Below are positions 4,153 to 38,936 of a DNA stretch of 45,219 nt, piece after piece. Location of the stretch: assembly GCA_018333535.1 (NCBI GenBank), contig JAGXTA010000095.1, positions 1-45,219 on the forward strand. The letters run 5' to 3'. The position numbers and the translations under genes were made by a program. The notes under the pieces are model-generated. The model was not told the DNA's origin, searched no databases, and worked only from the letters and a program-made list of their open reading frames with translations. This DNA is from Deltaproteobacteria bacterium (GTDB lineage: Bacteria > Desulfobacterota > BSN033 > UBA1163). Within the stretch, counting starts at the first letter, position 1. The number at the start of each line of letters is the position of its first letter.

Positions 4153-5931
4153 ATGATCGATTTTTTAGGTAACTGGAAGAAGACGGATTACTGCGGGGAA
4201 CTCCGCAAGAAGGACGCAGGTCGCACAGTGACCCTTCTCGGATGGGTGCAGAAGAGGAGGGACCTGGGAGGCCTCATCTTTGTTGAAATGAGGGACCGGC
4301 ATGGGCTTGTTCAGGTGGTCTTCAATCCAGAGGCGAACCGGGAAGTTCATGAGAAGGCTCAGGCTCTCCGGAGCGAATATGTTATCGGAATAATGGGAGA
4401 AGTCGTATTAAGACCTGAAGGAACGGCTAACCCCAAACTGACCACCGGAGAGATTGAGGTGGCTGTCAAAGAGTTGAGGATCCTCAATATCTCCCAAACA
4501 CCGCCATTTCTCATCGACGATGAGGATGAGGTGGCTGAAAATACCCGGCTCAAGTATCGTTACCTTGATTTAAGAAAACCGGGATTGCAAAAGAAGCTAA
4601 TTCTCCGGCACCGTTTGGCCAGAGAGGTGAGGGACTATTTCGACCGGCTGGGTTTTCTCGAAGTCGAAACACCGATGCTCACCAAGTCCACCCCTGAAGG
4701 GGCAAGAGACTTTCTCGTTCCGAGCCGCCTCAGCCCGGGCCATTTTTACGCCCTGCCACAGTCTCCTCAACTTTTCAAACAGATTCTAATGGTAGCCGGT
4801 TATGACCGGTACTTTCAGATTGTGAGATGTTTCAGGGATGAAGACCTCCGCTCGGACCGTCAGCCTGAGTTTACACAGATCGATGTGGAAATGTCTTTTG
4901 TGACCGTTGAGGATATCCGAAAGACGATGGAAGGGCTGATGGTTCACCTCTTCAAAGAGGTCATGGGAATGGAACTTAAGACTCCGTTTCCGGCATTGAG
5001 CTACGGTGAGGCGATGGACCGGTACGGCCTGGATAAGCCTGATATTCGGTTCGGGCTGGAATTGAAGGATCTCTCAAAGATATTAAAAGGCTCAACCTTC
5101 AAGGTGTTTCAGGATGCGCTGAACGGAGGAGGGATCATCAAGGCGATTAACGTGAAGGGAGGAGCGACCTTTTCGCGGAAGGAGATCGATGACCTCACCC
5201 ATTTTGTCTATGACTTTGGAGCGAAAGGGTTGATTTCTGCCAAAGTGGGACGGGAGGACTGGCAATCGCCCATGCAGAAATTCATCACCGATCAAGAGCG
5301 AAGATCCGTGGAAAAAATGATGGAGGCATCGGAGGGCGATCTTCTCCTCTTCATCGCCGGTCCTTCAAAAGTGGTGAATCAGTCGCTGGCAAACTTACGC
5401 CTCCATCTCGGCAAGAAGTTGGGGTTGATCCCGGAAGACGAGTACAGGTTTGTGTGGATTCTGGATTTTCCCTTATTGGAATATGACGAGGCAGAGAAGC
5501 GGTATGCGGCTGTTCATCATCCCTTTACCGCTCCGAAGGATGAGGATATCCCCTTATTGAAGGAACACCCGGAGCAGGTGAAGGCCAAGGCTTATGATCT
5601 TGTTTTAAACGGTTCTGAGATCGGAGGAGGAAGCATCCGGAACCACTTGAAGGAGGTCCAATCCCTTCTTTTCGAGAAGCTGGGGATGGAAGAGGAAGAG
5701 GCGAGGGATAGGTTCGGGTTCCTGCTGGAGGCGCTCGAATATGGGACTCCTCCTCATGGAGGGATCGCTTTCGGGTTCGACCGGCTCGTCATGATCCTGA
5801 GCCATTCGGAGTCAATCCGGGATGTGATCGCCTTTCCAAAAACCCAGAAGGGAACCTGCCTGATGACCGACGCCCCTTCGAAAGTGGATGGAAAGCAACT
5901 CGATGAGCTGTGGATTAAGTTGAAGATGTAA
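4153..5931 (+). CDS. aspS: Aspartyl-tRNA synthetase
   Basis: A 592-residue class II aminoacyl-tRNA synthetase of the long bacterial type, charging tRNA-Asp (possibly also tRNA-Asn) with aspartate. The N-terminal OB-fold anticodon-binding domain ([19 protein letters not shown]) is followed by the catalytic domain with motif 2 ([18 protein letters not shown]), the bacterial GAD insertion (about residues 290-420), and motif 3 near the C-terminus ([10 protein letters not shown]). The active-site segment [11 protein letters not shown] is intact. Length is normal. The start at 4153 has only a weak ribosome binding site (TAGGACC). Whether it is discriminating cannot be judged from these residues alone. 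It is monocistronic as far as can be seen. Confidence 0.97.
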
Positions 5932-5964
5932 TCACACATGAGGACTTTGAAAAGTCTCTTTTTT

Positions 5965-6032
5965 CGTCATTCCCGTGAAAACGGGAATCCAGAATCTAAA
6001 ACCTCTGGATTCCTGCTTCTGCAGGAATGACA
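5965..6032. repeat. Palindromic intergenic element with two nested hairpins
   Basis: TTCCCGTgaaaACGGGAA (5970-5987) and TTCCTGCttctGCAGGAA (6010-6027) lie inside an outer inverted repeat. GTCATTCC pairs with GGAATGAC at the ends, and GGAATCCAGA pairs with TCTGGATTCC in the middle. This is the layout of short palindromic, MITE-like elements spread through many proteobacterial genomes. It may end aspS transcription structurally, but there is no T-run. Confidence 0.75.
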
Positions 6033-6111
6033 AGCTTATTGGGCTATATTAAAAAATAATTTTCAAAGCGCTAAATTAATACAAAAGTTATTTTTGTTTG
6101 GAGGAGAAAAC

Positions 6112-7926
6112 ATGGCTATCACAAAAAAGAAGAAGGCATTTCAAAGCAAGGTAGCAACGATCCAATTTCCACTTCTGGATAGCCAGGAGCCTAACCTCTA
6201 CCGGCATGTCTTTCCCTACGATGAGGTTTGCCGGATCGAATTTGACAATCGTTTTGTCTTCATCGATCCTCCGGAGGAGATTTTTATCACGGACACCACG
6301 TTCCGGGACGGCCAGCAGGCAAGACCTCCCTATACCGTGGAACAGATTGTTGACCTCTATGAGATGCTCCATAAGCTGGGGGGCTCCAATGGAGTGATCC
6401 GGCAGTGCGAATTCTTCCTTTACAGCGAGAAGGACAAGGAGGCGTTGCGAAGGTGCCAGGAAAGGAATTACCGCTATCCTGAGATCACCGGATGGATCCG
6501 CGCCGTCAAAGAAGATTTCAAACTGGTCAAAGAGATGGGGTTGAAGGAAACAGGCATTCTCACATCGGTTTCGGATTATCACATCTTCTTAAAATTGAAG
6601 AAGAACCGGAGGGTGGTTTTAAGGGAATACCTCTCCATTGTTTCTGCGGCCCTGGATCTGGGGATCACCCCAAGGTGCCATTTTGAGGATGTGACCCGGG
6701 CGGATATCTACGGGTTCTGCGTTCCCTTTGCTCAGGATATTATGCGCCTCTCTGAGGAAGCGAAATTGCCGGTCAAGATCCGGCTCTGCGACACCCTGGG
6801 ATATGGCGTGACCTATCCGGGCGCGGCCCTTCCGCGATGTGTGCCGAAGATCATCCGGGCCTTGATAGACGATGCCGGGGTGCCTTCGGAATGTCTGGAA
6901 TGGCACGGTCATAACGATTTCCACAAGGGATTGATCAATGCGACCACAGCCTGGCTCTACGGATGCTCGGCAGCCAATGGGACACTATTGGGTTTCGGAG
7001 AGAGGACGGGCAATGCGCCGATTGAAGGGCTCATCATGGAATATATCAGCTTTGTGGGGCACAACAACGGCATTGATACCACCATGATCACAGAGATCCG
7101 GAATTATTTCGAACGGACCATCGGCGCCCACATTCCTCCCAACATGCCTTTTGTCGGCGCCAATTTCAATGCCACCAGCGCCGGCATCCATGCGGACGGA
7201 ATTCTGAAGAATGAGGAGATCTATAACATCTTCAACACATCTAAAATTCTCAACCGGCCCATTTCGATCTCTGTCAACGACAAATCAGGGTTGGCTGGCA
7301 TTGCCCAGTGGATCAACTCCCACTTCTCCCTTACCGGAAAAGACCGGATCGAGAAGACCCATCCGGGGGTGGCGAAGATCAATCGCTGGGTGACCAAACA
7401 ATATGAGGATGGAAGAACAACCGCCATCTCCGACCCGGAGATGGAGAAAGTGGCACGGAAATACCTTGCCGAAATCTTCATCTCAGAATTTGACATGTTA
7501 AAGGCAAGGGCGCGCGAAATGGCTTACCATATCATCGAACGGGTGATAGAGGAGCCCGGAATGAAGTCCATGAATGTGGAGCAGATCGAGCCCATCCTGC
7601 AATCGATGGTAGACGAATATCCCTATCTGCAGTATGTCTATGTGGTCAATATCCACGGGATAAAAATTACAAGGACCATCTGCCAGCCCGTGGATCAATC
7701 GAAATTTGCCCATGTGGGAATAGGGGAGGATTACGCGGACCGCTCCTGGTTCATCGACCCCCTGAAGGATGGAAAGATCCATGTCACCGACCTTTATTCT
7801 TCAAAACATACAGGCGCACTCTGTATCACTCTTTCTGGCCCTATCAGAAATGAGATGGGAGAGATCAAGGGGATCCTGGGTCTGGACATTCGATTCGAAG
7901 ATTTGACCAAGAGCGAACAGGAGTAA
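6112..7926 (+). CDS. DRE-TIM acyltransferase (Re-citrate/homocitrate synthase type) with C-terminal Cache domain
   Basis: A 604-residue protein. ATG at 6112 is chosen because GGAGGAG lies five bases before it. Residues about 55-420 form an HMGL-like (DRE-TIM) barrel: DTTFRDGQQ (about 60, catalytic Arg and metal-binding Asp), HGHND (about 264, metal-binding His pair) and GIHADG (about 359). These fit enzymes condensing acetyl-CoA with an oxo-acid: isopropylmalate, homocitrate or Re-citrate synthase. Residues about 470-600 are not the LeuA regulatory fold. They read as a Cache (PDC) sensor domain: DYADRSWF, then TGALCITLSGP, then GILGLDIRFEDL. No transmembrane helix or signal peptide flanks it, so the sensor would be cytoplasmic. 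With TCA enzymes nearby and no other citrate synthase in the window, Re-citrate synthase is my preferred role; the substrate is not proven. Most likely monocistronic. Confidence 0.8.
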   Translation: MAITKKKKAFQSKVATIQFPLLDSQEPNLYRHVFPYDEVCRIEFDNRFVFIDPPEEIFITDTTFRDGQQARPPYTVEQIVDLYEMLHKLGGSNGVIRQCEFFLYSEKDKEALRRCQERNYRYPEITGWIRAVKEDFKLVKEMGLKETGILTSVSDYHIFLKLKKNRRVVLREYLSIVSAALDLGITPRCHFEDVTRADIYGFCVPFAQDIMRLSEEAKLPVKIRLCDTLGYGVTYPGAALPRCVPKIIRALIDDAGVPSECLEWHGHNDFHKGLINATTAWLYGCSAANGTLLGFGERTGNAPIEGLIMEYISFVGHNNGIDTTMITEIRNYFERTIGAHIPPNMPFVGANFNATSAGIHADGILKNEEIYNIFNTSKILNRPISISVNDKSGLAGIAQWINSHFSLTGKDRIEKTHPGVAKINRWVTKQYEDGRTTAISDPEMEKVARKYLAEIFISEFDMLKARAREMAYHIIERVIEEPGMKSMNVEQIEPILQSMVDEYPYLQYVYVVNIHGIKITRTICQPVDQSKFAHVGIGEDYADRSWFIDPLKDGKIHVTDLYSSKHTGALCITLSGPIRNEMGEIKGILGLDIRFEDLTKSEQE

Positions 7927-8222
7927 TCGGGAAAAGACCTAACCCGGCATAGCGGGGACCAAACAGGCTTTTGTAGTTGAAAAAATTCGAAATCCGAATA
8001 TCGAAATCCCTGCCTTAGCCGAAGCGGCTTCGCGCAGGCAGGCGAAACAAATTCGAATTTTCATAATTCAAATTTCTTAAAGGTTTTTTTGGTTTTGAAC
8101 ATTTGAAATTTGGTCATTTGAGATTGTTTCGAATTTCGGATTTCGTGCTTCGGATTTAAAATCCGCTCGATCTAAAATAACTTTGTTGCCATTTTGCGTA
8201 CAATTTCATTTCTAAGGAACTA
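7927..8222. other. Spacer with inverted word-repeats, no gene
   Basis: About 296 bases before the ligase gene. They hold a CCTGCC...GGCAGG hairpin (8009-8042) and AT-rich inverted words (CGAAATCCGAA near 7990 against TTCGGATTTCG near 8135). No open frame of interest. The start of the ligase gene has a modest AAGGAA ribosome binding site. Confidence 0.5.
8009..8042. repeat. CCTGCC/GGCAGG hairpin, second copy
   Basis: CCTGCC at 8009-8014 pairs with GGCAGG at 8037-8042; an inner stem AGCCGAAgcGGCTTCG-like extends it. Same family as 318-337 and 34460-34480. Confidence 0.6.
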
Positions 8223-13811: not shown

Positions 13812-14543
13812 ATGGAAGACGTTGGATGTAATTGTGCGAAGTGTGCGGTGGTGGAGAAGATCTGCAGGCTGGAGAAGGGAAGGGGGCCTTCGTCGTGTCC
13901 TACAAAGAAGGAAGGTCCAACCCTGACAGAGGCTCTATCAAGATATGATGATCCGGAGATCAAAGAGTTTGCGCGCATGGCTTCGGTTCAGGAAGGGTCC
14001 TGTTATGCCCAGCGGGATGCAAAGCCGTTTGTGATGATTCCCACCAAGAGCCGGATCGAGGAGTTGATCGAGTTCTCACAGAGGATGGGTTATAAGAAAC
14101 TTGGCCTGGCCTTTTGCGGGGGACTGACCCTTGAAGCTTCGATTCTTTCAGAGATATTGGAGAAACATGGTTTTGAAGTCATTTCAGTTTCCTGCAAGGT
14201 GGGAGGCATTCCAAAGGAGAGGATCGGCATCAAGGATGAGGAGAAGATCCAAATCGGCAAGTTCGAGCCGATGTGCAACCCCATTGCCCAGGCAAAGATC
14301 TTGAATCGGGCCGGAACCGATTTCAATATCATGCTGGGACTCTGCATTGGCCATGATTCCCTCTTCTTGAAATTTGTGGAGGGCCTGACGACCGTCTTTG
14401 CCGTCAAAGACCGGGTTACAGGCCACAATCCGGTAGCCGCACTTTATACCTCACGATCCTATTATCAGCGGGTAATGAAGTTGGAATTCGGCAGTCCGGA
14501 GGAGATGAAGGGCAGATTAATACCCGAAGAGAATGGAAAATAG
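13812..14543 (+). CDS. DUF1847 family cysteine-rich protein
   Basis: A 243-residue protein with a Cys-rich N-terminus (CNCAKCAVVEKICRL..SCP), suitable for metal binding, followed by an alpha/beta region with KLGLAFCGGL, SVSCKVGG, MCNPIAQAKILN, GLCIGHDSLF and VKDRVTGHNPVAALY. The pattern MCNPIAQA..LN..GTDFNI.LGLC.GHDS is characteristic of DUF1847. The cysteines (CNCAKC, C..C, MCN, LCIGHD) suggest an Fe-S or zinc centre. The ribosome binding site GGAAGGAG lies about 12 bases before the start. Its function is not established. Co-directional with the MmgE/PrpD gene, probably one transcript. Confidence 0.8.
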   Translation: MEDVGCNCAKCAVVEKICRLEKGRGPSSCPTKKEGPTLTEALSRYDDPEIKEFARMASVQEGSCYAQRDAKPFVMIPTKSRIEELIEFSQRMGYKKLGLAFCGGLTLEASILSEILEKHGFEVISVSCKVGGIPKERIGIKDEEKIQIGKFEPMCNPIAQAKILNRAGTDFNIMLGLCIGHDSLFLKFVEGLTTVFAVKDRVTGHNPVAALYTSRSYYQRVMKLEFGSPEEMKGRLIPEENGK

Positions 14544-14590: not shown

Positions 14591-14636
14591 ATAAGCTAAA
14601 ATGAATCGAGTTTAAAGAATGAAAGGAGGTTTAAAA

Positions 14637-16124
14637 ATGGAGGGAATGGATAAAGTAGCAAGGAAGCCAATCGGGATAACAGATACAACCCTTCGTGACG
14701 GCCATCAATCCAATTTGGCGACACGCATGAGAGTCGAAGATATGGTCCCCATTGCCGAGGAACTGGATCAGGTGGGATTTCATTCTGTGGAGGTGTGGGG
14801 AGGAGCGACTTATGATGTCTGTCATCGTTTTTTAGGAGAGGACCCGTGGGAGAGGGTGAGAATTTTAAAGAAACTGATGCCAAAGACCCCCTTTCAGATG
14901 CTTCTCCGGGGACAGAACCTGGTGGGTTATCGTCACTACGCCGACGATCTGGTGGAGGCGTTCGTAGAAAAATGCGCTGAAGTGGGTATCGATATCTTTC
15001 GAGTCTTTGATGCGGTCAATGATGAGCGCAACTTTTGGACGGCCTTTAAAACGATCAAACGATGCGGCAAACACATTCAGGGAACGATCTGTTATTCTCT
15101 GACAGAGACACGGATGGGCGGGCCCATCTACAATATCAATTACTATCTTGACAAGGCAAAAATACTGGAGGATATGGGGGCAGATTCGCTCTGCATCAAA
15201 GATATGGCCGCACTGATCGCTCCGTATGACGCCTATGAGCTCGTTAAAGCGCTTAAAAAAGTCGTAAAAATTCCCATTCAGCTCCATACACATTATACGA
15301 GCGGGATGGGAACCATGACCTATCTGAAGGCGATTGAAGCTGGAGTGGATGTCGTCGATACATCGCTTGCCCCGTTTGCCCTCCGTTCTTCCCAGCCGGC
15401 CGTGGAACCTCTTCTTGTCGCCCTTCAGGGAACGCCCTGGGATCCGAAGATTGACCTTTCGAAACTCCTCAAATTAGGAGACTATCTGGAGTCGATTGCT
15501 CCCAAGTATCGCGACTTTCTGGATACGACAAAGATGTCCGTGATCGATACTGGAGTGCTCAAACATCAAATCCCCGGCGGGATGATTTCAAACATGGTGG
15601 GCCAGCTCAAACAGCAAAATGCCATCCACAGGATTTCAGAGGTCTATGCGGAACTGCCGCAGACCCGGAAAGACCTTGGGTATCCTCCATTGGTGACGCC
15701 GACTTCGCAGATCGTGGGGGTTCAGGCCGTGCTCAATGTTCTCTTCGGCCGTTATAAGATGCTGTCAAAGGAGACGCAGGACTATGTCTATGGCCTCTAT
15801 GGAAAGTCTCCTGTTCCGATATCGGACGAAATCAAGAATATTGTTCTCAAAGGATATAAGAAAGGGAAGGAACCGATCACCTGCCGTCCCGCGGATGTTA
15901 TCGAACCTGAGTTAGAGAAGGTGAAGGAGGAGTCGAAAGAACTCGCAAAAGATCTTTATGATACGTTGATTTACGCTCTTTTCCCCCAGACCGGGACTCA
16001 GTTCTTAAAGTGGAAATATGGCCTGGAGCCTGTTCCGGATAAAGTGAAGCCCAAAACGATGGAGGATGTGAAGCGGGAAGACGAAGCCATTGCCAAGGCA
16101 AAGGTAGAAGCTCAGAAAAAATAA
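14637..16124 (+). CDS. Carboxyltransferase subunit (pyruvate carboxylase B / oxaloacetate decarboxylase alpha type)
   Basis: A 495-residue protein carrying the carboxyltransferase domain shared by PycB, OadA and the transcarboxylase 5S subunit. DTTLRDGHQS near residue 20, IKDMAALI (the lysine that becomes carboxylated) at about 180, HTHYTSGM (metal-binding His) at about 207, and a conserved PycB-OadA C-terminal region. No biotinyl (AMKM) domain is present, so a separate biotin carrier protein is needed. ATG at 14637 is preceded by AAAGGAGG; an ATG at 14619 sits at the ribosome binding site and is rejected. It links pyruvate and oxaloacetate, or methylmalonyl-CoA if a transcarboxylase. It is the first gene behind the LacI-type operator. 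Confidence 0.9.
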   Translation: MEGMDKVARKPIGITDTTLRDGHQSNLATRMRVEDMVPIAEELDQVGFHSVEVWGGATYDVCHRFLGEDPWERVRILKKLMPKTPFQMLLRGQNLVGYRHYADDLVEAFVEKCAEVGIDIFRVFDAVNDERNFWTAFKTIKRCGKHIQGTICYSLTETRMGGPIYNINYYLDKAKILEDMGADSLCIKDMAALIAPYDAYELVKALKKVVKIPIQLHTHYTSGMGTMTYLKAIEAGVDVVDTSLAPFALRSSQPAVEPLLVALQGTPWDPKIDLSKLLKLGDYLESIAPKYRDFLDTTKMSVIDTGVLKHQIPGGMISNMVGQLKQQNAIHRISEVYAELPQTRKDLGYPPLVTPTSQIVGVQAVLNVLFGRYKMLSKETQDYVYGLYGKSPVPISDEIKNIVLKGYKKGKEPITCRPADVIEPELEKVKEESKELAKDLYDTLIYALFPQTGTQFLKWKYGLEPVPDKVKPKTMEDVKREDEAIAKAKVEAQKK

Positions 16125-16166: not shown

Positions 16167-17238
16167 ATGAACGCAACGAGATGAATAAAAAGGTCAATAT
16201 AAAAGATATTGCCAGGATTGCAAAAGTTTCGCACACCACCGTTTCAAGAGCCCTCAATGACAAATCTCGAATTCGCAATGAGACCAAAGAGAAGATTCTC
16301 ACCATCGCAAAAGAGTTGGGTTATCGGCCCAATTTTATCGCCAGAAGTTTGGTGATGAGGCGAACTATGACGCTGGGCCTTGTCATAACAAATATTGCCA
16401 ACCCTTTTTACACAGAACTCGCACAGGGGATTGAAAAGACAGCCACAAAGTTAGGATATAGCATCATCCTCTGCAGCACCCAGTCCAACATCACCACTGA
16501 AAAGCAATACATTGAAATGCTTCGAAGCAAGGGAGTGGATGGAATCATTTTTTCCTCAGCCCACATGGAAGATCCGAACATCGTTGCTCTGGCAGAGGAG
16601 GAATTTCCCATTATCATGGTCAATCGAAGGACCTACCATCCAACCGTAAAAGAGAAGATCGATTATGTAGGAGTGGATAATATCCTTGGGGGATTTATGG
16701 CTGTGGAGCATCTGATCAGGCTCGGCCATAATAGAATCGGAGTGATTGGCGGGTCTGCGGAATCCTCAGTGGGCCTCGAACGTCTCGATGGCGGGAAAAA
16801 AGCGCTTGAGGCCTATGGGGTGGAACAAAGGGACGATTTTTTTCTCGAAGGAAATTTTTTAAAGAGGTCGGGTTATCAGAGAGCAAAACAATTTCTTAAA
16901 ATGGCGGAGATGCCCACTGCCATCTTTGCCACCAATGATTACATGGCATTGGGAGTCTATCAGTCGATCCTCGAAGAAGGTCTCAGGATACCGGAGGATG
17001 TCGCCCTGATCGGATTCAACGACATCGAATTTTCCTCGATGCAGGGAATCGAGCTGACCACGATCGGCCAAAAAAAGTTTGAGATGGGAGCCATCGCAGT
17101 TGAGATGCTGGCCGGAAAGATTGAGGAGGGTGATGACAGGCCATCAGCCAAGGAGATTTTTCTCGTGCCCGAACTGATCATCCGGAAGACCTGTGGGTTT
17201 CATCTGAAAGGGTATCAAATGGAGTCGCGAAATGAACT

Positions 17239-18355
<1,117 letters not shown>

Positions 18356-18510: not shown

Positions 18511-19350
18511 ATGCGAGAGATTGATGTCAAACTGATCACCGAGAAGGTGAGAGACCTCTGCATCGAGGCGAATACCGATCTGGGAGAGGATGTGCTTGAG
18601 GCCTTTGATCGGGTCATACAAAAAGAAGAATCTCCCCTGGGAGTGGAGATATTGAAGGAGTTGAAGGAGAATGCCCGGATTGCAAGGGACGAAAGAGTGG
18701 CCATCTGTCAGGATACGGGTTTTGCAGTGGTCTTCATCGAATTGGGGCAGGATGTTCATCTGGTCGGGGGAGGCCTGAAAGAGGCGATCTTTGAAGGGGT
18801 TCGTCAGGGATACCGTGACGGGTATCTTAGAAAGTCGATCTGCCATCCCTTCACCCGGGCAAATACCGGCGACAATACTCCCGCCATCATCCATACGGAG
18901 ATCGTTCCCGGAGATCAGGTTAAGATCACTGTGGCTCCGAAAGGAGGCGGCAGCGAGAATATGAGCCGGGTGGTGATGCTTACCCCATCGGATGGGATTG
19001 AGGGGATCAAACGATATGTCGTCCAGAGGGTGAAAGAGTCCGGTTCGAATCCCTGCCCTCCGACCATTGTCGGAGTGGGAATCGGAGGGACATTTGAAAT
19101 GGCTGCATTCCTTGCGAAGAAGAGCCTTCTCCGCCCTCTCGGGAGGAAGAATCAGGATCCGGAGCTGGACAAGTTGGAATCAGAGATCCTCGAAGAGATC
19201 AACAAACTGGGAATCGGGCCACAGGGTTTGGGAGGGCGAACCACCTCGCTGGCAGTTCACGTCCTGATGATGCCCTGCCATATCGCCAGCTTTCCGCTGG
19301 CAGTCAATATCCAGTGTCACGCCCAGAGACATAAGGAGATTGTGATTTAG
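18511..19350 (+). CDS. Fumarate hydratase class I, alpha subunit
   Basis: A 279-residue alpha subunit of a two-subunit iron-sulfur fumarase, interconverting fumarate and malate. The three Cys that bind the catalytic [4Fe-4S] cluster are visible in ICQDTGFAVV (about 70), PCPPTIVGVGIGGTFE (about 178) and MMPCHIASFPLAVNIQC (about 255). GGGSENMSR is present. Length is normal. The ribosome binding site AGAGGGGAAAG is seven bases from the ATG. The beta subunit gene follows. Oxygen-sensitive enzyme of anaerobes. Confidence 0.95.
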   Translation: MREIDVKLITEKVRDLCIEANTDLGEDVLEAFDRVIQKEESPLGVEILKELKENARIARDERVAICQDTGFAVVFIELGQDVHLVGGGLKEAIFEGVRQGYRDGYLRKSICHPFTRANTGDNTPAIIHTEIVPGDQVKITVAPKGGGSENMSRVVMLTPSDGIEGIKRYVVQRVKESGSNPCPPTIVGVGIGGTFEMAAFLAKKSLLRPLGRKNQDPELDKLESEILEEINKLGIGPQGLGGRTTSLAVHVLMMPCHIASFPLAVNIQCHAQRHKEIVI

Positions 19351-19436
19351 GGAGATAGGGAGATGAGGAGGTGGGGAGATAAAAAAATCTATTAACACCC
19401 CATCACCCAATTCCCCTATCTCCCCATCTTTTTTAT
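19351..19436. repeat. Inverted-word spacer between fumarase subunit genes
   Basis: GGGGAGATA (about 19373) is mirrored by TATCTCCCC (about 19420); GATAGGGAGATGAGG-type words are repeated. It would form a stem in the transcript between the two subunit genes. Confidence 0.6.
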
Positions 19437-19447
19437 CCGGAGGATTT

Positions 19448-20005
19448 ATGACTGAGCCTATTCGTTTGAAGACGCCCCTGACCGATAAGGATGTGGAGGG
19501 ATTGGAGATCGGGGATCGGGTTCTGATCAATGGGGTGATTTATACGGGAAGGGATGCCGCACACAAAAGGCTCTCCGATCTCTTGAAAGAGGGGAAAAAA
19601 TTTCCTTTTGACATTCAGGGACAGATCATATACTATGTCGGCCCGACACCCGCAAGACCCGGACAGGTCTTCGGGTCTGCAGGCCCTACGACCAGTTACC
19701 GGATGGATGCCTATGCCCCTGCTTTGATTGAGAAAGGTTTGAAAGGGATGATCGGAAAAGGGATGCGATCCGATGCGGTCAAAGAAGCGATGAAGAAACA
19801 TCGAGCTGTCTACTTCGCGGCCACCGGAGGGGCAGGCGCTCTGCTGGCCAAAAAGGTGAAAAAAGCAGAGGTGGTGGCCTATGAGGATCTTGGCCCGGAG
19901 GCCATCCGGAGGCTCGAGGTTGAAGACCTTCCGGTGATCGTCATCAATGATGTTCGAGGAAACGACCTCTATATTGAAGGGGAGAAGAAATACCATAAAG
20001 GTTAA
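19448..20005 (+). CDS. Fumarate hydratase class I, beta subunit
   Basis: A 185-residue C-terminal/beta subunit of class I fumarase (or L(+)-tartrate dehydratase type). IYTGRDAAHKRL, GPTPARPGQVFGSAGPTTSYRM and GKGMR are family hallmarks; the serine/arginine block GPTTSYRMD helps bind the substrate carboxylate. ATG at 19448 follows GGAGG. Together with the alpha subunit it forms the fumarate/malate step adjacent to malate dehydrogenase. Confidence 0.95.
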   Translation: MTEPIRLKTPLTDKDVEGLEIGDRVLINGVIYTGRDAAHKRLSDLLKEGKKFPFDIQGQIIYYVGPTPARPGQVFGSAGPTTSYRMDAYAPALIEKGLKGMIGKGMRSDAVKEAMKKHRAVYFAATGGAGALLAKKVKKAEVVAYEDLGPEAIRRLEVEDLPVIVINDVRGNDLYIEGEKKYHKG

Positions 20006-20116: not shown

Positions 20117-20530
20117 ATGAAAATTGAACTTACACGTGAGAAAGTTCACAACGAATTTACGAAGAAGGTTGAGTTGATCAGCGGGCAGAACCTCTTCGCC
20201 TGTTATCAGTGCGGAAATTGTACGGCCGGTTGTCCGGTGGCCTTTGCCATGGAGGTCGGCCCTCATGAGGTCATCCGTTATACGCTTCTCGGTCTCGAAG
20301 AAGAGGCGCTTGGAGTCAATACCTTCTGGCTCTGCGCTTCGTGCCTCCAGTGCACGTCGAGATGCCCGAAAGGGATCGATATCGCAAGGGTGATGGACGC
20401 CTTAAGAATGGTGATCCTGAGGAAGAAGGACCGGAAGGATCATATCCAGATTCCGGACTTCCCCGAAGGCTTTCTGGAAAGGCTGCCGCAGATCGCCTTC
20501 GTCAGCGGATTCCGAAAATTTCTTTCGTAA
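20117..20530 (+). CDS. hdrC: HdrC-like iron-sulfur protein, unit 1
   Basis: A 137-residue HdrC-type electron carrier with two [4Fe-4S] motifs: CYQCGNCTAGCPV (about 29) and CASCLQCTSRCPKG (about 76). It lies directly before an HdrB gene, the usual order. It is shorter than its paralogue at 25138 (184 residues), missing part of the C-terminal helical tail. The role is to wire electrons between HdrA flavin modules and HdrB in a soluble heterodisulfide-reductase-like complex. The ribosome binding site TTGGAGAAC is near. Confidence 0.9.
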   Translation: MKIELTREKVHNEFTKKVELISGQNLFACYQCGNCTAGCPVAFAMEVGPHEVIRYTLLGLEEEALGVNTFWLCASCLQCTSRCPKGIDIARVMDALRMVILRKKDRKDHIQIPDFPEGFLERLPQIAFVSGFRKFLS

Positions 20531-20573
20531 CGCTATGCGCTATGCCCTATGCGCTCTGCGGGTAGGAGTATTT

Positions 20574-21443
20574 ATGGATTATCTTTATTTCCCGGGATGC
20601 ACCCTCTACACCAAGGCCAAAAATTTCGATCAGACAGCCCGGGACTGTTCCCATCTCCTCGGGTTTGAATTGAAGGAACTTCCCAACTGGACCTGCTGTG
20701 GAGCGACCTTTCCATTAACCACAGACAATATCATGGCCCTTCTCCCGCCATCGAGAATTTTAGCCAAGGCGAGAGAAGAAGGGACAACGCTGACGACCCT
20801 CTGCGCCATCTGCTTCAATGTGATCAAGAGGACAAACCGGTTGATTCAGAACGATGGTGAGAAGCGAGAGAAGATCAACAACTTTATCGAGATGAACTAC
20901 CAGGGAGACCTCCGGATCCTCCACTATCTGGAGATACTGAAACAGGAGATCGGTTTTCCTCAAATCAAAGAGAGGGTGAAGAAGCCGTTAGCCGGACTTA
21001 AGGCGGCGGCCTATTATGGGTGTATGCTCCTGCGGCCGTTTGATGAGATGGGATTTGACGACAAGGAGAGCCCCACCCTGTTTGAAGAGTTCCTGGAGGC
21101 CATGGGCGCAGAATCGGTTGATTTCCCTTATAAGATCGAATGCTGTGGGTCTTTCCAGTCCGTGGGTTCTCCAGAAGTGGCCACAGAGTGTAGCTATAAG
21201 ATTCTGGGTTCTGCCATTAAGAACGGAGCAGAGGTCGTTGTTTCAACCTGTCCGATGTGCACTTTCAACATCGACCATAAACAGTCCGATATTAAAGAAA
21301 AATATCTGGGCTTCAAGCCCATTCCGGTCCTCTATTTCACCCAGCTCTTAGGTATGGCCATGGGACTCGATTATCAGTCTCTGGGATTTGAACAGAACTT
21401 TGTGGATCCCTTGCCTCTTCTAAAGGAAAAGGGTTTTATCTAA
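20574..21443 (+). CDS. hdrB: HdrB-like catalytic subunit, unit 1
   Basis: A 289-residue protein with two complete CCG domains (C, then CCG, then CxxC). The first comprises YFPGCTLY, TCCGATFP and LCAICFN; the second comprises YYGCMLLRP, ECCGSFQ and STCPMCTFN. These are the ligands of the two noncubane [4Fe-4S] clusters that reduce a heterodisulfide in methanogens; in bacteria the substrate is usually unknown. ATG at 20574 follows GGTAGGAG. A longer reading from 20535 runs through a short tandem word repeat (GCTATGCGCTATGCC) and is rejected. Confidence 0.93.
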   Translation: MDYLYFPGCTLYTKAKNFDQTARDCSHLLGFELKELPNWTCCGATFPLTTDNIMALLPPSRILAKAREEGTTLTTLCAICFNVIKRTNRLIQNDGEKREKINNFIEMNYQGDLRILHYLEILKQEIGFPQIKERVKKPLAGLKAAAYYGCMLLRPFDEMGFDDKESPTLFEEFLEAMGAESVDFPYKIECCGSFQSVGSPEVATECSYKILGSAIKNGAEVVVSTCPMCTFNIDHKQSDIKEKYLGFKPIPVLYFTQLLGMAMGLDYQSLGFEQNFVDPLPLLKEKGFI

Positions 21444-21479
21444 ATGAAGGTATCAATTTAGCGGTTTGAAATAAACTTG

Positions 21480-21592
21480 TTAAAATCCCTCCCCACCTCC
21501 CTTTTCCAAAGGGAGGAGAAACATTTCCCCCTTTTGCCCTCCGGGTCAGAGACCGCTCTGGGTCGGAGACCAAAGGGGGATGAAGGAGGATT
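21480..21592. repeat. Palindromic spacer element (CTCCC/GGGAGG type), copy 1
   Basis: CCTCCCTTTTCCAAAGGGAGG forms a hairpin and CCCCCTTTTG is mirrored later by CAAAGGGGG; outer words AAATCCCTCC and GGAGGATT also pair. A closely related element is at 26751-26826. The CTCTGGGTCGG part contributes a third stem. Confidence 0.65.
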
Positions 21593-21626
21593 AGATAACT
21601 TTTTTCAAAGAACTAAAGTGTCACAA

Positions 21627-22937
21627 ATGAAGAATAATGGAAGATTCATCAAGAGGGCGATGGTCATTGGCGGAGGCATTGCCGGAATCTCCGCATCCAT
21701 TGACATCGGGAATGCGGGTTATGAAGTCGTTCTGGTGGAGAAGCTTCCCTCCATCGGAGGAAGGATGCTTCAACTCTCAGAGACCTTTCCCACGCTTGAT
21801 TGCGCCCAGTGCACCCTGACTCCCAAAACAGTGGAGACAGGCCAGCATCCTCATATTAAACTTCTCACCTATTCTGAGGTGGACGAAGTGAAAGGAAAGG
21901 CGGGCGACTTTACCGTAAGGGTACGTAGAAAGGCGGCCTATGTGGACTGGGAGAAATGCAATGGCTGTGGCCTCTGCCAGGAGAAGTGCCCTTCGAAAAA
22001 ACCTTCTGAATTTGACCGGGCCATGGGGCTGGGAAAGGCGATCTATACGCTATCGCCGCAAGCCGTTCCGAATAAACCCGTGATCAATCCCTCCAACTGC
22101 CGTTATTTCTTGGAGAAGAAGTGCAGGGTCTGTGAGAAGGTCTGTCCGGTCGGAGCCATTGACTACGAACAGCAGGACCGTTTTGTCGAAGAGAAAGTCG
22201 GAGCCATCATCGCGGCTGTGGGTTTTGACCTGATGCCAAAGGAGACGTTCGGCGAATATGGTTATGGAGTGATTCCGGATGTGATCGATGGTTTGGCCTT
22301 CGAGAGGCTCAATTCCGCGTCCGGGCCGACCACGGGTGAAATCAAAAGGCCTTCGGATGGCAATATCCCGAAGGAGGTCGTTTTCATCCAGTGCACGGGG
22401 TCAAGAGACCCGGAACGGTATATGCCCTACTGCTCGCGGGTCTGCTGTATGTATACAGCCAAGCATGCCAGGCTCTACAAGCATAAAGTCCATGACGGGC
22501 AGGCCTATATTTTCTATATGGATATCCGGTCAACAGGCAAGGGTTATGAAGAGTTCATCCAGCAGGGGATGGAAGAGGAGGGGATCCTCTATCTCCGCGG
22601 CAGGGTTTCCCGGATCTTCAGGGATGACGGGAAGATCGTGGTCTGGGGGGTCGATACGCTGACAGGAAAGAAGGTGGAGATTTCTGCGGATATGGTCGTT
22701 CTGGCCACGGCCATTCAACCCCAGGGGGAGGCAAAAGGGCTGGCCCAAAAACTGGGGATCAACACGGATGACTATGGGTTCTTCACGGAGGCGGAGAGGA
22801 AACTCCGGCCTGTGGAGACGAATATAGAAGGGATCTACATTGCAGGCTGCGCCCAGGGGCCGAAAGATATTGCCGATGCCGTGGCCCATGCCAACGCTTC
22901 GGCGAGCAAGGTACAGGGATTGTTTGCAAAACATTAA
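21627..22937 (+). CDS. hdrA: HdrA-like flavoprotein without the N-terminal domain (QmoA-like), unit 1
   Basis: A 436-residue HdrA/QmoA-type protein. A FAD-binding GGGIAGISAS at about 15 is followed by TLDCAQCTLTPK (a CxxC motif), a ferredoxin insertion (CNGCGLCQEKCP and CRVCEKVCP), the IQCTGSRD...CSRVCC cluster-binding segment, and the C-terminal GCAQGPKDIADAV. It lacks the N-terminal CHCG domain that the next protein has. ATG at 21627 is chosen because the longer reading from 21477 is encoded by the repeat. HdrA binds FAD and, in methanogens, bifurcates electrons. Confidence 0.9.
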   Translation: MKNNGRFIKRAMVIGGGIAGISASIDIGNAGYEVVLVEKLPSIGGRMLQLSETFPTLDCAQCTLTPKTVETGQHPHIKLLTYSEVDEVKGKAGDFTVRVRRKAAYVDWEKCNGCGLCQEKCPSKKPSEFDRAMGLGKAIYTLSPQAVPNKPVINPSNCRYFLEKKCRVCEKVCPVGAIDYEQQDRFVEEKVGAIIAAVGFDLMPKETFGEYGYGVIPDVIDGLAFERLNSASGPTTGEIKRPSDGNIPKEVVFIQCTGSRDPERYMPYCSRVCCMYTAKHARLYKHKVHDGQAYIFYMDIRSTGKGYEEFIQQGMEEEGILYLRGRVSRIFRDDGKIVVWGVDTLTGKKVEISADMVVLATAIQPQGEAKGLAQKLGINTDDYGFFTEAERKLRPVETNIEGIYIAGCAQGPKDIADAVAHANASASKVQGLFAKH

Positions 22938-22943
22938 GAATGC

Positions 22944-23042
22944 TGGAGGATAGAGGAGCGGCCTTCGGCCTTGAGGGAAGAGGCAAAAGAACAAGAGAAT
23001 TTGCCTTAAGTGAAACGCTCCTCAAGCGGAGCGATCCTCGAA
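22944..23042. repeat. Dispersed spacer element, copy 2 (GGCCTTCGGCC type)
   Basis: CGGCCTTCGGCCTTGAGG, AGAGGCAAAAGA and GGAGCGATCCTCGA match the element at 18391-18493 in order; GAGGAT at the left and ATCCTC at the right pair as outer arms. Confidence 0.75.
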
Positions 23043-23059
23043 CCTTAAGCGAAGCGATC

Positions 23060-25009
23060 ATGAAAAAACTTGGTGTTTTTATCTGCCATTGCGGAGTGAA
23101 CATTGCGGGCACGGTTGATGTCAAATCGGTGGCTGGCAAAATGGGAGAAGTGAAAGATGTGAGCCATAGCGCCGATTACATCTATATGTGCTCCGAACCC
23201 GGGCAACAGCTCATCCGGGATGCGATTCGGGAGAAGGGGCTGGAAGGGGTTGTTGTCGCCTGCTGTTCGCCGAGCATGCATGAGAATACCTTCAGAAAGG
23301 CGGTTAAGTCGGAAGGGATGAACCCCTATCTCTGCGAGATCGCCAATATCCGGGAACAGTGCAGTTGGGTTCACCAGAAAGAGAAGCAGAAGGCGACAGA
23401 AAAAGCCGAAGAGATCATTCTGGCGACCCTGAAGAAGGTGAGAGAGAATGAGAAACTTGAAGCCATTTCGGTTTCCATTAACCGGAGCGTGCTGGTCATC
23501 GGCGGAGGGATTGCCGGAATGACTGCGGCCCTCGATCTGGCAGAGGGAGGTTATGAGGTGATCCTGCTTGAAAAGGAGCAGGCCCTGGGCGGACACATGA
23601 CCCAGCTTTCAAAGACCTTTCCCGATCTTCATCCCGCGCTTCCGGATCTCTTTACAAAGGCAAAGGGGATTGAGATGCATCCGGGTATCGATCTCCATTG
23701 CTATTCGGAGATGGAAGAGGTGAAGGGCTATGTGGGAAATTTCGAACTGACGATCCGGAAGAAGGCCACCTATGTCGACTGGGAGAAGTGTAATGGTTGC
23801 GGTCTCTGCATCAGGGACTGCCCCGTAGAATATGTTTCCCAATTTGAGAGAGGGCTGGGCGTTCGAAAGGCGATCGATCTCCTTTATCCGAAAAGCGTTC
23901 CCGATAAGCCCGTGGTCCATCGCGTCCATTGCCGATATTTTATTGATGGAAGTTGCAGAAAATGCGAAGAGGTCTGCCCTGAGAAGGCGATTCGGTTCAA
24001 CCAGGAGGATGAACGGATCGGAAAGAAGGTTGGAGCCATTGTCGTAGCCACAGGATTTGATCTCTATCCACGGGAGAAGCTGGGGGAGTACGGCTATGGA
24101 GAGATTCCGGATGTGATCGATGGCCTCACCCTGGAACGGATGCTCTCAGTCGATGGGCCCACCAAAGGAAAGATCATCCGGCCCTCCGACGGGAAAGTCC
24201 CAAAGGAGATGGTCTTTATCCAGTGTGTGGCATCGAGGGACCCGGACCGTTATATGCCTTACTGCTCCCGCATCTGCTGTATGTACACCGCCAAACAGGC
24301 GAAGATCTATAAAGAGCAGGTCCCGGACGGACAGCCCTATATTTTCTATATGGATATCCGGTCGGATGGCAAAGGCTACGAGGAATTTTTACAGAAGACG
24401 ATCGAGGAGAAAGGGCTTCTCTACCTCAGGGGCCGTGTCTCCAGGATTTTTCAGGATAATGGGACGGTGAGAGTGTTGGGGGTGGATACCCTTACGGGCA
24501 ATATGGTTGAGGTGGCGGCAGATATGGTCGTATTGGCTACAGCGGTTGTTCCAAGCGACGGAGTGAAGGATCTCGCCGCCAAGCTGAGAGCGACTGTTGA
24601 TCGGCACGGATTTTTAACAGAGGCCCATATCAAACTCTATCCCGTGGAGAGTTCTACAAAGGGAATCTACCTGGCCGGCTGCGGCCAGAGCCCGAAAGAT
24701 ATCTCCGATACGGTCTCGCAGGCTTCGGCCACGGCCAGCAAGATTCAGGCCCTGCTTTCAACGGACCAGCTCCTTCAGGACCCCTTGATCGCTTTTGTTG
24801 ACGAACATATTTGCAGCGGGTGCGGCATCTGCGTTGAGATCTGTCCCTATGAGGCCAGAGAGATGGACTCCCGCCGGGGGATCTCGGTTGTCCATAGCGC
24901 GCTTTGCCAGGGATGCGGAGCCTGTATTGGGGCTTGCCCAAATTTTGCCTGTGAGTTAAGAAATAGTTCATCCATCCAGACCCTTCGGATGATGGATACG
25001 TTTGTATAA
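23060..25009 (+). CDS. hdrA: HdrA-like flavoprotein with CHCG and ferredoxin domains (QmoB-like), unit 1
   Basis: A 649-residue HdrA-type protein. The N-terminal domain contains FICHCG (about 8-12) and continues with CSEPGQ and ACCSPSMHE. A FAD motif GGGIAGMTAAL is near 147, a ferredoxin insertion (CNGCGLCIRDCP) near 243, IQCVASRD...CSRICC near 390-420, and two C-terminal ferredoxin clusters CSGCGICVEICP (about 585) and CQGCGACIGACP (about 616). Where the first HdrA has TLDCAQC, this has DLHPALP: the CxxC is lost. ATG at 23060 is taken; the longer frame from 22940 is repeat-encoded. Confidence 0.9.
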   Translation: MKKLGVFICHCGVNIAGTVDVKSVAGKMGEVKDVSHSADYIYMCSEPGQQLIRDAIREKGLEGVVVACCSPSMHENTFRKAVKSEGMNPYLCEIANIREQCSWVHQKEKQKATEKAEEIILATLKKVRENEKLEAISVSINRSVLVIGGGIAGMTAALDLAEGGYEVILLEKEQALGGHMTQLSKTFPDLHPALPDLFTKAKGIEMHPGIDLHCYSEMEEVKGYVGNFELTIRKKATYVDWEKCNGCGLCIRDCPVEYVSQFERGLGVRKAIDLLYPKSVPDKPVVHRVHCRYFIDGSCRKCEEVCPEKAIRFNQEDERIGKKVGAIVVATGFDLYPREKLGEYGYGEIPDVIDGLTLERMLSVDGPTKGKIIRPSDGKVPKEMVFIQCVASRDPDRYMPYCSRICCMYTAKQAKIYKEQVPDGQPYIFYMDIRSDGKGYEEFLQKTIEEKGLLYLRGRVSRIFQDNGTVRVLGVDTLTGNMVEVAADMVVLATAVVPSDGVKDLAAKLRATVDRHGFLTEAHIKLYPVESSTKGIYLAGCGQSPKDISDTVSQASATASKIQALLSTDQLLQDPLIAFVDEHICSGCGICVEICPYEAREMDSRRGISVVHSALCQGCGACIGACPNFACELRNSSSIQTLRMMDTFV

Positions 25010-25011
25010 AC

Positions 25012-25120
25012 ACGTGACACGTGCCCGTGACTCGTGTCCGGAAAAGAGAATGAAAAAAGAGAATATAGATGGTATGGCAAGGTTAACCGACACGGTCACG
25101 CGACACGGACACGAAAGTGA
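25012..25120. repeat. Spacer built from CACGTG/GTGTC words
   Basis: CACGTGACACGTGCCCGTG near 25013 is echoed by CGACACGGTCACGCGACACG near 25088. The words are partly inverted and partly direct. No gene. The next gene has GGAGG a few bases before its ATG. Confidence 0.5.
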
Positions 25121-25137
25121 TCTTAATGGAGGAATGA

Positions 25138-25692
25138 ATGGAAGCCCTGACCAACATGGAAAAGGCTAACAAGACTTTTCTGGAGGAAGTTTCTAAACGG
25201 AGCGGAGAAAAGCTCAGCCTCTGCTATCAGTGCCTCAAGTGCACGGCTGGTTGTCCCACAGCCCCTAACATGGAATTCCGGCCCAACAGCATCATCCGGA
25301 TGATCCAGATGGGGAAGAAGCAAGAGGTTCTGGGAAGCAGCGCCATCTGGTTCTGTGTTTACTGCCAGACTTGCGGCACACGTTGTCCGAATGAGATCCA
25401 CATCGGGGTTCTCATGGATGCTTTAAGAGAGATGGCCATGGAAGAGGGGGTCCACGCAAAAGAGAAAAACATCCATCTCTTTCATGAGGCTTTTATCCAG
25501 AGCGTCCGAAGGGGAGGAAGGGCGCATGAGGTAACCATGCTGATGGAATACATCCTCCGGAGCAGAGACTTGATGAAGGGTTCTCTCATCCCTGGCGTGA
25601 AACTCTTTTTGAAGGGTAAATTCCCCTTGCTCCCCAGTTTTGTAAAGGGGAAAGGAGAAATCAAACGAATATTTGAGAAATGTAAAAAATAA
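25138..25692 (+). CDS. hdrC: HdrC-like iron-sulfur protein, unit 2
   Basis: A 184-residue HdrC-type protein, near normal HdrC length. Two [4Fe-4S] motifs: CYQCLKCTAGCPTAP (about 38) and CVYCQTCGTRCPNE (about 80), then a long helical tail (LFHEAFIQSVRRGGRAHEVTMLMEYILRS). It is the start of a second, separate Hdr unit, upstream of HdrB2. The N-terminus MEALTNMEKANKTF is preceded by GGAGGAAT. Confidence 0.92.
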   Translation: MEALTNMEKANKTFLEEVSKRSGEKLSLCYQCLKCTAGCPTAPNMEFRPNSIIRMIQMGKKQEVLGSSAIWFCVYCQTCGTRCPNEIHIGVLMDALREMAMEEGVHAKEKNIHLFHEAFIQSVRRGGRAHEVTMLMEYILRSRDLMKGSLIPGVKLFLKGKFPLLPSFVKGKGEIKRIFEKCKK

Positions 25693-25794
25693 GAACGAGG
25701 AATAATGGAACGATGGGAAAGGAGGTTTTTTTGAATTTCGACCCAATATTCCAGTATTCCAATATTCCATGAATTATATTTTGGAGGTTTTATA

Positions 25795-26640: not shown

Positions 26641-26750
26641 CCTGGGTATCTCAAGGTTTTAACCTTGATCAGTATAAGAGATAGAGGCTTGATTCTGGAT
26701 ACTGGATGACCGGTTAATAACGGTCTCAAAATAGGAAAGACATCGATTTG

Positions 26751-26826
26751 TAAAATCCCTCCTGACCTCCCTTTGCGAAAGGGAGGAATTACCCCTCTTT
26801 GGCAAAGAGGGGTGAGGGGAGATTTT
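26751..26826. repeat. Palindromic spacer element (CTCCC/GGGAGG type), copy 2
   Basis: A 9-bp stem CCTCCCTTT/AAAGGGAGG (26766-26774 with 26778-26786), a second stem CCCCTCTTT/AAAGAGGGG (26792-26800 with 26804-26812), and outer pairing of AAAATCCCTCC with GGGGAGATTTTT. Related to 21480-21592. Confidence 0.75.
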
Positions 26827-26934
26827 TCAATGTTCATGTCAATTCAATTATGAGACTGTAAATAATGTCAAGTATTCAGCATCAAGAATCCAGTATCATT
26901 TGAAATTATCAATTTATTAAACAGAGGATAACAA

Positions 26935-36798: not shown

Positions 36799-37968
36799 AT
36801 GAAAATTCATGAGTATCAGGCCAAGGAGATTCTCAGGGGATACGGTATTCCTGTTCCAAAGGGAAGGGCGGCTGAAACGCCTGAAGAGGCGAGAAAGGTT
36901 GCTGAGGAGATTGGAGGAAAGCCGATCGTTGTCAAAGCCCAGATCCATGCAGGAGGCCGGGGCAAAGGAGGAGGTATTCGAGTTGTAAACAGTCCTGCAG
37001 AAGCTGAGAAGGCTGCGAAGGAAATTCTCGGGATGACCCTCGTTACTCATCAGACCGGACCTGCGGGCAGGGTGGTTCGGAAGATATTGGTCGAAGAGGG
37101 GGTGGAGATTAAAGAAGAACTCTATCTCGGTGTTGTGATGGACCGCTCCAGGGAGTGCCCGGTTATCATGGTCAGCCGTGAAGGAGGGGTGGAGATTGAA
37201 AAGATTGCCGCAGAGTCCCCTGAAAAGATTGTAAAGGAATGGGTGGAGCCTTATGTGGGATTAAGGCCTTTTCAAGCAAATAAGATCGGCTATGAACTCG
37301 GATTTGATCCCGGCCAGGTTGGAAAATTGAGAAGCGTGGTGAGCGGCCTTTATAAAACCTTTTACGAGAAGGATTGTCTTCTTGCAGAGATCAACCCTCT
37401 GGTACTCACCGGAGGCGGGGATTTGATCGCCCTCGATGCCAAAATCAATTTCGATGATAATGGCCTTTTCAGGCACAAGGAGGTTGCTGCCCTCAGGGAT
37501 CTTAATGAGGAAGCCCCTCTGGAGATTGAAGCCTCAAAATATAATCTGAATTATATCAAGCTCGATGGAAATGTGGGATGCATGGTCAACGGTGCAGGGC
37601 TTGCCATGGCCACCATGGACATCATCAAGGTGTTCGGAGCTGAACCAGCCAACTTTCTCGATGTCGGCGGAGGCGCAACGGTCGAGATGGTCAAGAATGG
37701 GTTTAAGATTCTCATGTCAGATCCGGCGGTGAAGGTCGTCTTTATCAACATCTTCGGCGGGATCCTTCGATGCGATACGCTTGCCAGGGGAGTGACGGAG
37801 GCGGTTGAAGAGGTCAAGGTGAATGTACCTATTGTGGTGAGATTGGAAGGGACGAATGTGGAAGAGGGAAGGAAGATCTTAAGGGAGTCAGGTCTTAATT
37901 TCACCGTTGCCTCCGGCATGCAGGAGGGGGCCCAGAAGGTGGTGGAAGCGTTGAAAACAAAAGGTTAA
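36799..37968 (+). CDS. sucC: Succinyl-CoA synthetase, beta subunit (ADP/GDP-forming)
   Basis: A 389-residue ATP-grasp protein that converts succinyl-CoA and nucleoside diphosphate to succinate and triphosphate, reversibly. [15 protein letters not shown] (nucleotide-binding lysine and loop) is near residue 45, LYLGVVMDR is conserved, LEINPL-type AEINPLVL binds metal, [11 protein letters not shown] is conserved, and FLDVGGGA and [12 protein letters not shown] are hallmark segments. Length is normal. The alpha subunit gene follows after 92 bases. This supplies the substrate-level phosphorylation step adjoining the fumarate/succinate arm of the pathway. Confidence 0.97.
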
Positions 37969-38047
37969 GGTTGAGGTCAAGGTTAAGATAACGAATAATT
38001 TCCTGGCTCATGCATATCTCAACCTAAACCTTAGTCTAAACCTAATT
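37966..38047. repeat. Inverted spacer of GGTTAAGGTT words
   Basis: GGTTAAGGTTGAGGTCAAGGTTAAG is mirrored by CTCAACCTAAACCTTAGTCTAAACC, and TGAGGTCAAGG by the same words reversed. Similar words occur at 20002-20025. The mirrored arms would form a stem between sucC and sucD. Confidence 0.6.
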
Positions 38048-38060
38048 CCGGAGGAATTCT

Positions 38061-38936
38061 ATGAGCATTTTAGTTGATGAGAATACGAAAGTGGTGGTTC
38101 AGGGGATTACAGGTAATGAGGGCCTTTTTCATACGAAACAGATGACGGAGTATGGAACAAAGGTTGTTGCCGGAGTGACTCCGGGTAAGGGAGGTCAGAA
38201 GGTTGAGGGAGTTCCTGTTTTTAATAGTGTCATGGAAGCGGTTAAGAGTACCGGCGCAAACGCTTCAGCTATCTTTGTCCCTCCCGCCTTTTCTGCTGAT
38301 GCGATCATGGAAGCCGCTGATTCAGGGGTATCTTTGGTTGTCTGTCTCACAGAGGGGATCCCGACGCTCGATATGGTGATGGTTCGAAAATATCTCAAAG
38401 AGAAGGGGACGAAGTTGGTTGGCCCAAATACTCCAGGAATCATTTCTCCAGGGAAGTGCAAAATCGGAGTAATGGCTGGATATATTCACAAACAAGGAAC
38501 AGTGGGAATTATGTCCAGGAGTGGAACACTCACTTACGAAGTGGTGGATCAATTGACGAAGAAGGGGATCGGGCAGTCGACCTGTGTGGGTATCGGCGGG
38601 GATCAGATCATCGGTCTGAACTATGTGGATTTATTGGACCTTTTCGAAAAAGACCCAGGCACTGAAGCCCTGATCATGATTGGCGAGATCGGGGGAACGG
38701 CCGAAGAAGAGGCAGCCCAATTTATTGAGAAGCATGTGAAAAAACCTGTAGTCGCTTTTATCGCGGGATTGACCGCTCCTCCTGGCAGAAGGATGGGGCA
38801 TGCGGGAGCCATCATTTCCGGAGGAAAAGGCACAGCCGGAGAGAAGATGAAAGCATTAGAGAAAGCAGGGGTCAAAGTCGTCAGGAATCCCGCATTGGTC
38901 GGAAGTGAACTTTCGGGTTTGCTGAAAAAGGCTTAA
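38061..38936 (+). CDS. sucD: Succinyl-CoA synthetase, alpha subunit
   Basis: A 291-residue protein. An N-terminal CoA-binding Rossmann domain ([28 protein letters not shown]) and the C-terminal phosphohistidine domain with [12 protein letters not shown], the histidine phosphorylated during catalysis. GNCPGIISP-like text ([16 protein letters not shown]) is intact. ATG at 38061 follows CGGAGGAATT. It partners with sucC. Confidence 0.97.

Follow-up and report, generated by a model that had tools for sequence, protein, structure and literature searches.

The 604-residue protein encoded at positions 6112-7926 of the window, the whole 45,219-nucleotide stretch of DNA under analysis, joins a DRE-TIM enzyme to a C-terminal Cache domain, and this architecture is confirmed by profile searches and structure prediction. 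With a probability of about 0.6, it is a cytosolic Re-type citrate synthase whose Cache domain would replace the LeuA regulatory domain as an allosteric ligand switch, an amino acid being the likeliest ligand. The kind of enzyme and the kind of sensor are both known; their fusion is what appears to be new. The open reading frame lies on the forward strand and starts with an ATG at 6112, just 5′ of which GGAGGAG forms a good ribosome-binding site, and AlphaFold2 models the full-length protein with a mean pLDDT of 90. The coordinates of the gene, its domains, and its neighbors are collected in Table 1.

Table 1. Features of the Cache-bearing synthase and of its surroundings in the window
Feature	Position	Strand	Evidence
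Cache-bearing enzyme, 604 aa, most likely a Re-type citrate synthase	6112..7926	+	ORF, Pfam, 80 relatives in genome contigs, AlphaFold2
HMGL-like DRE-TIM catalytic barrel, residues 58-331	6283..7104	+	Pfam E=8.1e-31
Post-barrel subdomain, HCS_D2-like (residues 348-397) and helices up to residue 451	7153..7464	+	Pfam, AlphaFold2
Lead helix of the Cache unit, residues 459-479	7486..7548	+	AlphaFold2
Cache domain, residues 492-600	7585..7911	+	Pfam, profile search, fold comparison, dN/dS
R544-x-W546 of the amino-acid motif	7741..7749	+	Alignment; R 90%, W 100% of 96 sequences
Y562, opposite PctA Y144	7795..7797	+	Alignment; Y 82%, F 16% of 96 sequences
D592, opposite PctA D173 and a KinD alanine	7885..7887	+	Alignment; D 100% of 96 sequences
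aspS, conserved upstream neighbor	4153..5931	+	32 of 144 related loci have aspS in front of the gene, same strand, within 1.2 kb
pycB, pyruvate carboxylase subunit B/oxaloacetate decarboxylase alpha type (oxaloacetate metabolism)	14619..16124	+
mdh, malate dehydrogenase (oxaloacetate supply)	17342..18355	+	TIGR01763, above cutoff
Fumarate hydratase, alpha and beta subunits	18511..20005	+
sucCD, succinyl-CoA ligase beta and alpha	36799..38936	+

The catalytic part carries the hallmarks of DRE-TIM metallolyases, namely the HMGL-like barrel, R65-D66 near the N-terminus, and the HxH motif H265-G-H267. The segments FRDGQQ (residues 64-69) and HGHND (265-269) occupy invariant columns across 57 sequences. 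Homocitrate and isopropylmalate synthases are the top Foldseek matches of the barrel, and in a search of solved structures with the whole protein the front part retrieves 2-isopropylmalate, homocitrate, and citramalate synthases and the tail weak Cache-sensor matches. The barrel is followed by an HCS_D2 match (E=0.0006, under the cutoff) and by helices predicted at residues 393-404, 418-432, and 441-451, and the preliminary description, which had placed residues ∼55-420 in the DRE-TIM family, is upheld. It had also described a protein that lacks a membrane helix, with a Cache domain that could serve as an allosteric switch for a small organic acid or amino acid in the role of the LeuA domain. 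The architecture agrees with the present results, and the switch is a proposal: the highest 19-residue hydropathy mean of the whole protein is only 1.31, within the catalytic part, so no membrane helix is found, and Pfam detects no LeuA_dimer domain in the 604 residues, the Cache fold lying C-terminal to the barrel and the post-barrel part.

Cache domains, which the literature ranks as the largest family of prokaryotic extracellular sensors, usually occur in an extracytoplasmic position on signaling proteins; the present one is fused to a metabolic enzyme that has no membrane segment. Its identification relies on the Pfam family PF22673 (MCP-like_PDC_1), which matches with E=1.1e-14 and 55 bits against a curated cutoff of 27, with a further dCache_1 match over residues 493-599 (8e-8) that falls under its own cutoff. 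The C-terminal region had been proposed to be a Cache domain over residues ∼470-600; the domain stands, and the boundaries were slightly short, as the single unit of ∼145 residues extends over 459-604 with its lead helix. A long N-terminal helix is a typical Cache feature (PMC4822843). Modeled alone (residues 453-604), the Cache domain reaches an AlphaFold2 pLDDT of 87. A profile of 96 tails matches solved Cache sensors, including Tlp3 (2e-10), KinD (4e-10), PctA (6e-7), PctC (4e-5), and the cytosolic YkuI (6e-4), with McpA and Mlp24 significant too. The ligands of the nearest solved relatives are amino acids (Tlp3, PctA, PctC, Mlp24) or pyruvate (KinD).

In the binding site, the retained R-x-W...Y...D positions shift the likely ligand class towards amino acids. 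Pocket positions were read from alignments rather than from model coordinates, and the HMMER alignment with PctA pairs R544 with R126, W546 with W128, F547 with Y129, Y562 with Y144, and D592 with D173. PctA D173 holds the amino group of the ligand. The published amino-acid motif assigns carboxylate binding to R126 and a key ligand contact to D173, and it places W128 and Y144 inside the pocket (PMC10104139). The set of arginine, tryptophan, aromatic residue, and aspartate is kept in 84 of the 96 relatives, and R544 is substituted in 10. The simplest reading is a putative ligand that has a carboxylate as well as an amino group. The domain falls short of the full published motif, and of the strict dCache_1AA definition, because PctA Y121 has no conserved counterpart (position 539 is a glutamate in the window protein and variable among relatives); the protein also has one Cache unit where dCache_1AA sensors have a double module. 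A purine-type (dCache_1PU) site was rejected on two grounds: R129 and W140 of McpH are 11 residues apart as against 2 for R544 and W546, and the D173 position, conserved in the window family, is a glycine in McpH.

A different ligand is suggested by the fold comparison, in which the best match of the AlphaFold2 Cache model is the pyruvate binder KinD (Z=16.4, 141 residues, rmsd 3.7), followed by WalK (16.0), Tlp3 (14.7), the citrate-binding CitA (14.6), and the succinate-binding DctB (13.7-13.8). The Cache domain of a Re-citrate synthase could accordingly sense a carboxylic acid, such as pyruvate, another 2-oxo acid, a C4 dicarboxylate, or citrate, with feed-forward activation or product inhibition as examples of the outcome. 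KinD and the window Cache share the stretches DR-x-[WF]-F and S/T-D-x-Y-S-S-x-x-T-G, and pyruvate, oxaloacetate, and citrate all occur in the pathway. However, D592, the amine-binding position of the amino-acid receptors, is invariant in the window family and an alanine in KinD, which keeps the arginine and for which a solved R131A mutant exists; moreover, CitA and DctB match by fold only and are absent from the sequence-profile search. We consider a carboxylic acid an unlikely ligand on this balance, and an amino acid the preferred one.

The Cache domain is under purifying selection, with dN/dS values of 0.02-0.15 in close pairs, near that of the core. W546, S564, L570, and D592 are invariant in all 96 Cache sequences, and F547, T573, T567, G554, and G516 nearly so. 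Some of these residues (S564, L570, G516) could be structural, and PAS and Cache domains are described as dimerization domains too (PMC8694187). A ligand-free Cache domain with a purely structural or oligomerization role in the citrate synthase would also be consistent with the existence of intact-looking relatives that have no Cache domain. Such a domain would nevertheless have no need of a charged pocket, and R544, W546, Y562, and D592, which line the pocket in homologs, are conserved. A purely structural role is therefore distinctly improbable in our estimate.

The fusion is old and widespread. In the window's phylum, ∼142 of 147 family members extend through the Cache domain, the remainder being three that have none and two that are cut by contig ends. 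Nearly all family members of Nitrospirota carry it, as do named members of Elusimicrobia, Omnitrophota, Lentisphaerae, Fibrobacteres, and Termititenax. The domain is present in 13 and absent from 21 members in Spirochaetota, and it is found in none of 19 in Planctomycetota, so the switch would be dispensable in other lineages. Relatives that have no Cache domain stop at window residue 455-480, at or shortly before the lead helix. Two Spirochaetota genomes, G524 (L099/L139) and G560 (L098/L140), each encode one Cache-bearing and one Cache-less copy, which makes a natural test pair. A simple single origin of the Cache domain is a borderline case: the tree of the catalytic part, for which three outgroup synthases were too distant to serve in rooting, requires five to six changes of Cache state, and the AU test of a single origin with 46 sequences gives p=0.0496. 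A plasmid search for relatives retrieved only two, from Deinococcus, at 38%.

The preliminary description left the enzyme as one of citrate- or homocitrate-synthase type; operon partners, avoidance of the Si-citrate synthase, and the presence of separate leuA, cimA, and homocitrate-synthase-like genes narrow it to a Re-type citrate synthase, which is most likely the correct reading of the catalytic part, its Re stereochemistry being predicted by homology and from published assignments. The NCBIfam models for LeuA, CimA, and NifV give weak and mixed scores, at best 148 bits against cutoffs of at least 413, so the enzyme is none of these named equivalogs; the genome has genuine LeuA and CimA genes, and a homocitrate-synthase-like one, at other loci. 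An aconitase gene lies 10-50 bp downstream in close relatives (L007-L010) and also in L015, L018, and L110, loci that represent Syntrophorhabdus-type relatives and some Nitrospirota. A malate dehydrogenase gene follows within ∼240 bp in L036, L054, L064, L119, L132, and L144; the lineages concerned are Elusimicrobia, Nitrospirota, a single member of Spirochaetota, and a single Cache-less one from the window's phylum. In the last of these (L144, genome G013), the malate dehydrogenase gene is adjacent with a gap of zero.

Published assignments point in the same direction. Relatives from Planctomycetota, which share 63-65% identity with the window core, have sucC (succinyl-CoA ligase) directly downstream of the synthase gene, and the anammox-type relative L083 has this neighbor just as the published Kuenenia gene does. 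The product of the Kuenenia gene is 55% identical to the Clostridium kluyveri Re-citrate synthase and has been proposed to be a Re-citrate synthase (PMC8027424). Endomicrobia homologs have been placed inside the clade of characterized Re-citrate synthases (PMC11257099).

The distribution of the family across 296 genomes of the window's phylum argues for the same assignment: 117 genomes have only this family, 128 only the Si-citrate synthase family PF00285, 30 both, and 21 neither. This avoidance is strong (odds ratio 0.04, Fisher p=2e-31 in a test that ignores relatedness) and spans many taxonomic families; one PF00285 genome was left out of the tally. The window's own genome is among the 30 with both, as it encodes a TIGR01800 protein of PF00285 (citrate synthase II or 2-methylcitrate synthase), near which aconitase-type genes lie, and the window enzyme may thus not be the sole citrate synthase there. 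The possibility that this PF00285 protein provides the citrate, together with the NCBIfam scores, none of which exceeds its cutoff, could be taken to mean that the window enzyme makes homocitrate, isopropylmalate, citramalate, or another product under the control of the Cache domain. That alternative is very improbable, since aconitase or malate dehydrogenase genes adjoin the synthase gene in several phyla, the two families avoid each other, the genes for the sister synthases are separate, and the Kuenenia and Endomicrobia relatives are published as putative Re-citrate synthases. At G000:C150:21185-23851 (L002, L153), a homocitrate/isopropylmalate-synthase-like gene of ∼410 aa is directly followed by an aconitase-family gene; it is separate from the LeuA gene on C112.

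The surroundings of the gene in the window include a large anaerobic TCA cluster on one strand (9869-38936). Besides pycB, mdh, and the fumarase and sucCD genes, it holds two fumarate-reductase-like flavoprotein genes (9869, 32682) and Hdr/MFR-like genes (20117-29967). The presence of pycB, mdh, fumarase, and sucCD in the window also favors the citrate assignment. Between pycB and mdh (16181-17311) lies the gene of a LacI-type regulator whose sensor domain resembles periplasmic binding proteins; there are no sugar genes alongside, and the regulator may control the TCA genes. A cysteine-rich DUF1847 protein is encoded immediately upstream of pycB (13812-14543). Intergenic repeats, for example tcattcccgtgaaaacgggaatccag, occur at 5950-6035 and 7980-8075 and also in L085; repeats of this kind yield spurious open reading frames that read VTPAKAGVQ.

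The reaction of the enzyme would be the condensation of acetyl-CoA and oxaloacetate to citrate. Since the Cache domain retains much of an amino-acid-binding site, it may directly signal to the enzyme whether to lower or raise its activity. Leucine, isoleucine, and lysine are the end products that inhibit LeuA, CimA, and homocitrate synthase, respectively, by feedback, and the citrate synthase of such anaerobes often serves mainly to supply 2-oxoglutarate and glutamate. Binding of a small metabolite in the Cache pocket, its carboxylate held by R544 and W546 and its amino group by D592, could alter barrel activity by way of the lead helix and the helices that follow the barrel; the lead helix, which connects directly with the final helix of the catalytic region, would be the obvious transmission element. 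We favor an amino acid, perhaps glutamate, as the allosteric effector: glutamate or an amino acid of its family would be the most attractive candidate, as it would provide end-product feedback on the branch from citrate through 2-oxoglutarate to glutamate, the same logic as in the sister enzymes with an unrelated domain. The binding of a ligand, its identity, and the sign of its effect are inferred. In its full form, the proposal that the Cache domain has taken over the job of LeuA_dimer as a cytosolic amino-acid feedback sensor, gating carbon into the oxidative TCA branch to glutamate in many anaerobic phyla, is tentative and falls somewhat short of even odds.

If correct, direct action of a Cache domain on an enzyme of the TCA cycle would put the fold to a new use, and it would give sulfate reducers, syntrophs, and other anaerobes a readily testable regulatory logic for their Re-citrate synthases. 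The ligand prediction is concrete, an amino acid with R544 and D592 as test residues. For annotation, proteins that combine Cache and HMGL-like domains should be taken as enzymes, not receptors. In a partial coverage of the literature, no relevant paper on a Cache domain with isopropylmalate, citrate, or homocitrate synthase was found, nor any published discussion of a Cache domain on a metabolic enzyme; domain databases surely display the architecture already. A 2016 survey lists signal-transduction domains as the outputs of Cache proteins and two small families as mainly intracellular (PMC4822843).

Among known systems, the closest enzymes are the Re-citrate synthases (EC 2.3.3.3) of C. kluyveri and Syntrophus aciditrophicus, which share the homocitrate/isopropylmalate-synthase superfamily with the window protein and, by the operon and co-occurrence evidence, probably citrate synthesis; the window protein adds a C-terminal Cache domain that is undescribed in the literature found. 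The C. kluyveri enzyme, at ∼450 aa, has the Cache-less length, and the Syntrophus enzyme is reportedly of ∼72 kDa, a mass that would be compatible with a Cache-bearing enzyme. LeuA and CimA have the barrel and the post-barrel subdomain in common with it and a C-terminal domain at the place of amino-acid feedback, which is LeuA_dimer in their case and Cache in the window protein. The dCache_1AA receptors PctA, PctC, Tlp3, and Mlp24 share the Cache fold, significant sequence similarity, and the equivalents of PctA R126, W128, Y144, and D173, whereas the window Cache is single, cytosolic, and fused to an enzyme, with the Y121 equivalent unconserved and Y129 replaced by phenylalanine. The sensor domain of KinD, a Bacillus sporulation kinase, is the best structural match and has motifs in common, but it is extracellular, sits on a histidine kinase, binds pyruvate, and has an alanine opposite D592. 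YkuI_C, a cytosolic Cache domain on an EAL protein, matches the profile weakly and sets a precedent for an intracellular Cache domain; it belongs to another Cache family and is joined to a c-di-GMP signaling domain, whereas the Cache domain of the window protein is joined to a metabolic enzyme.
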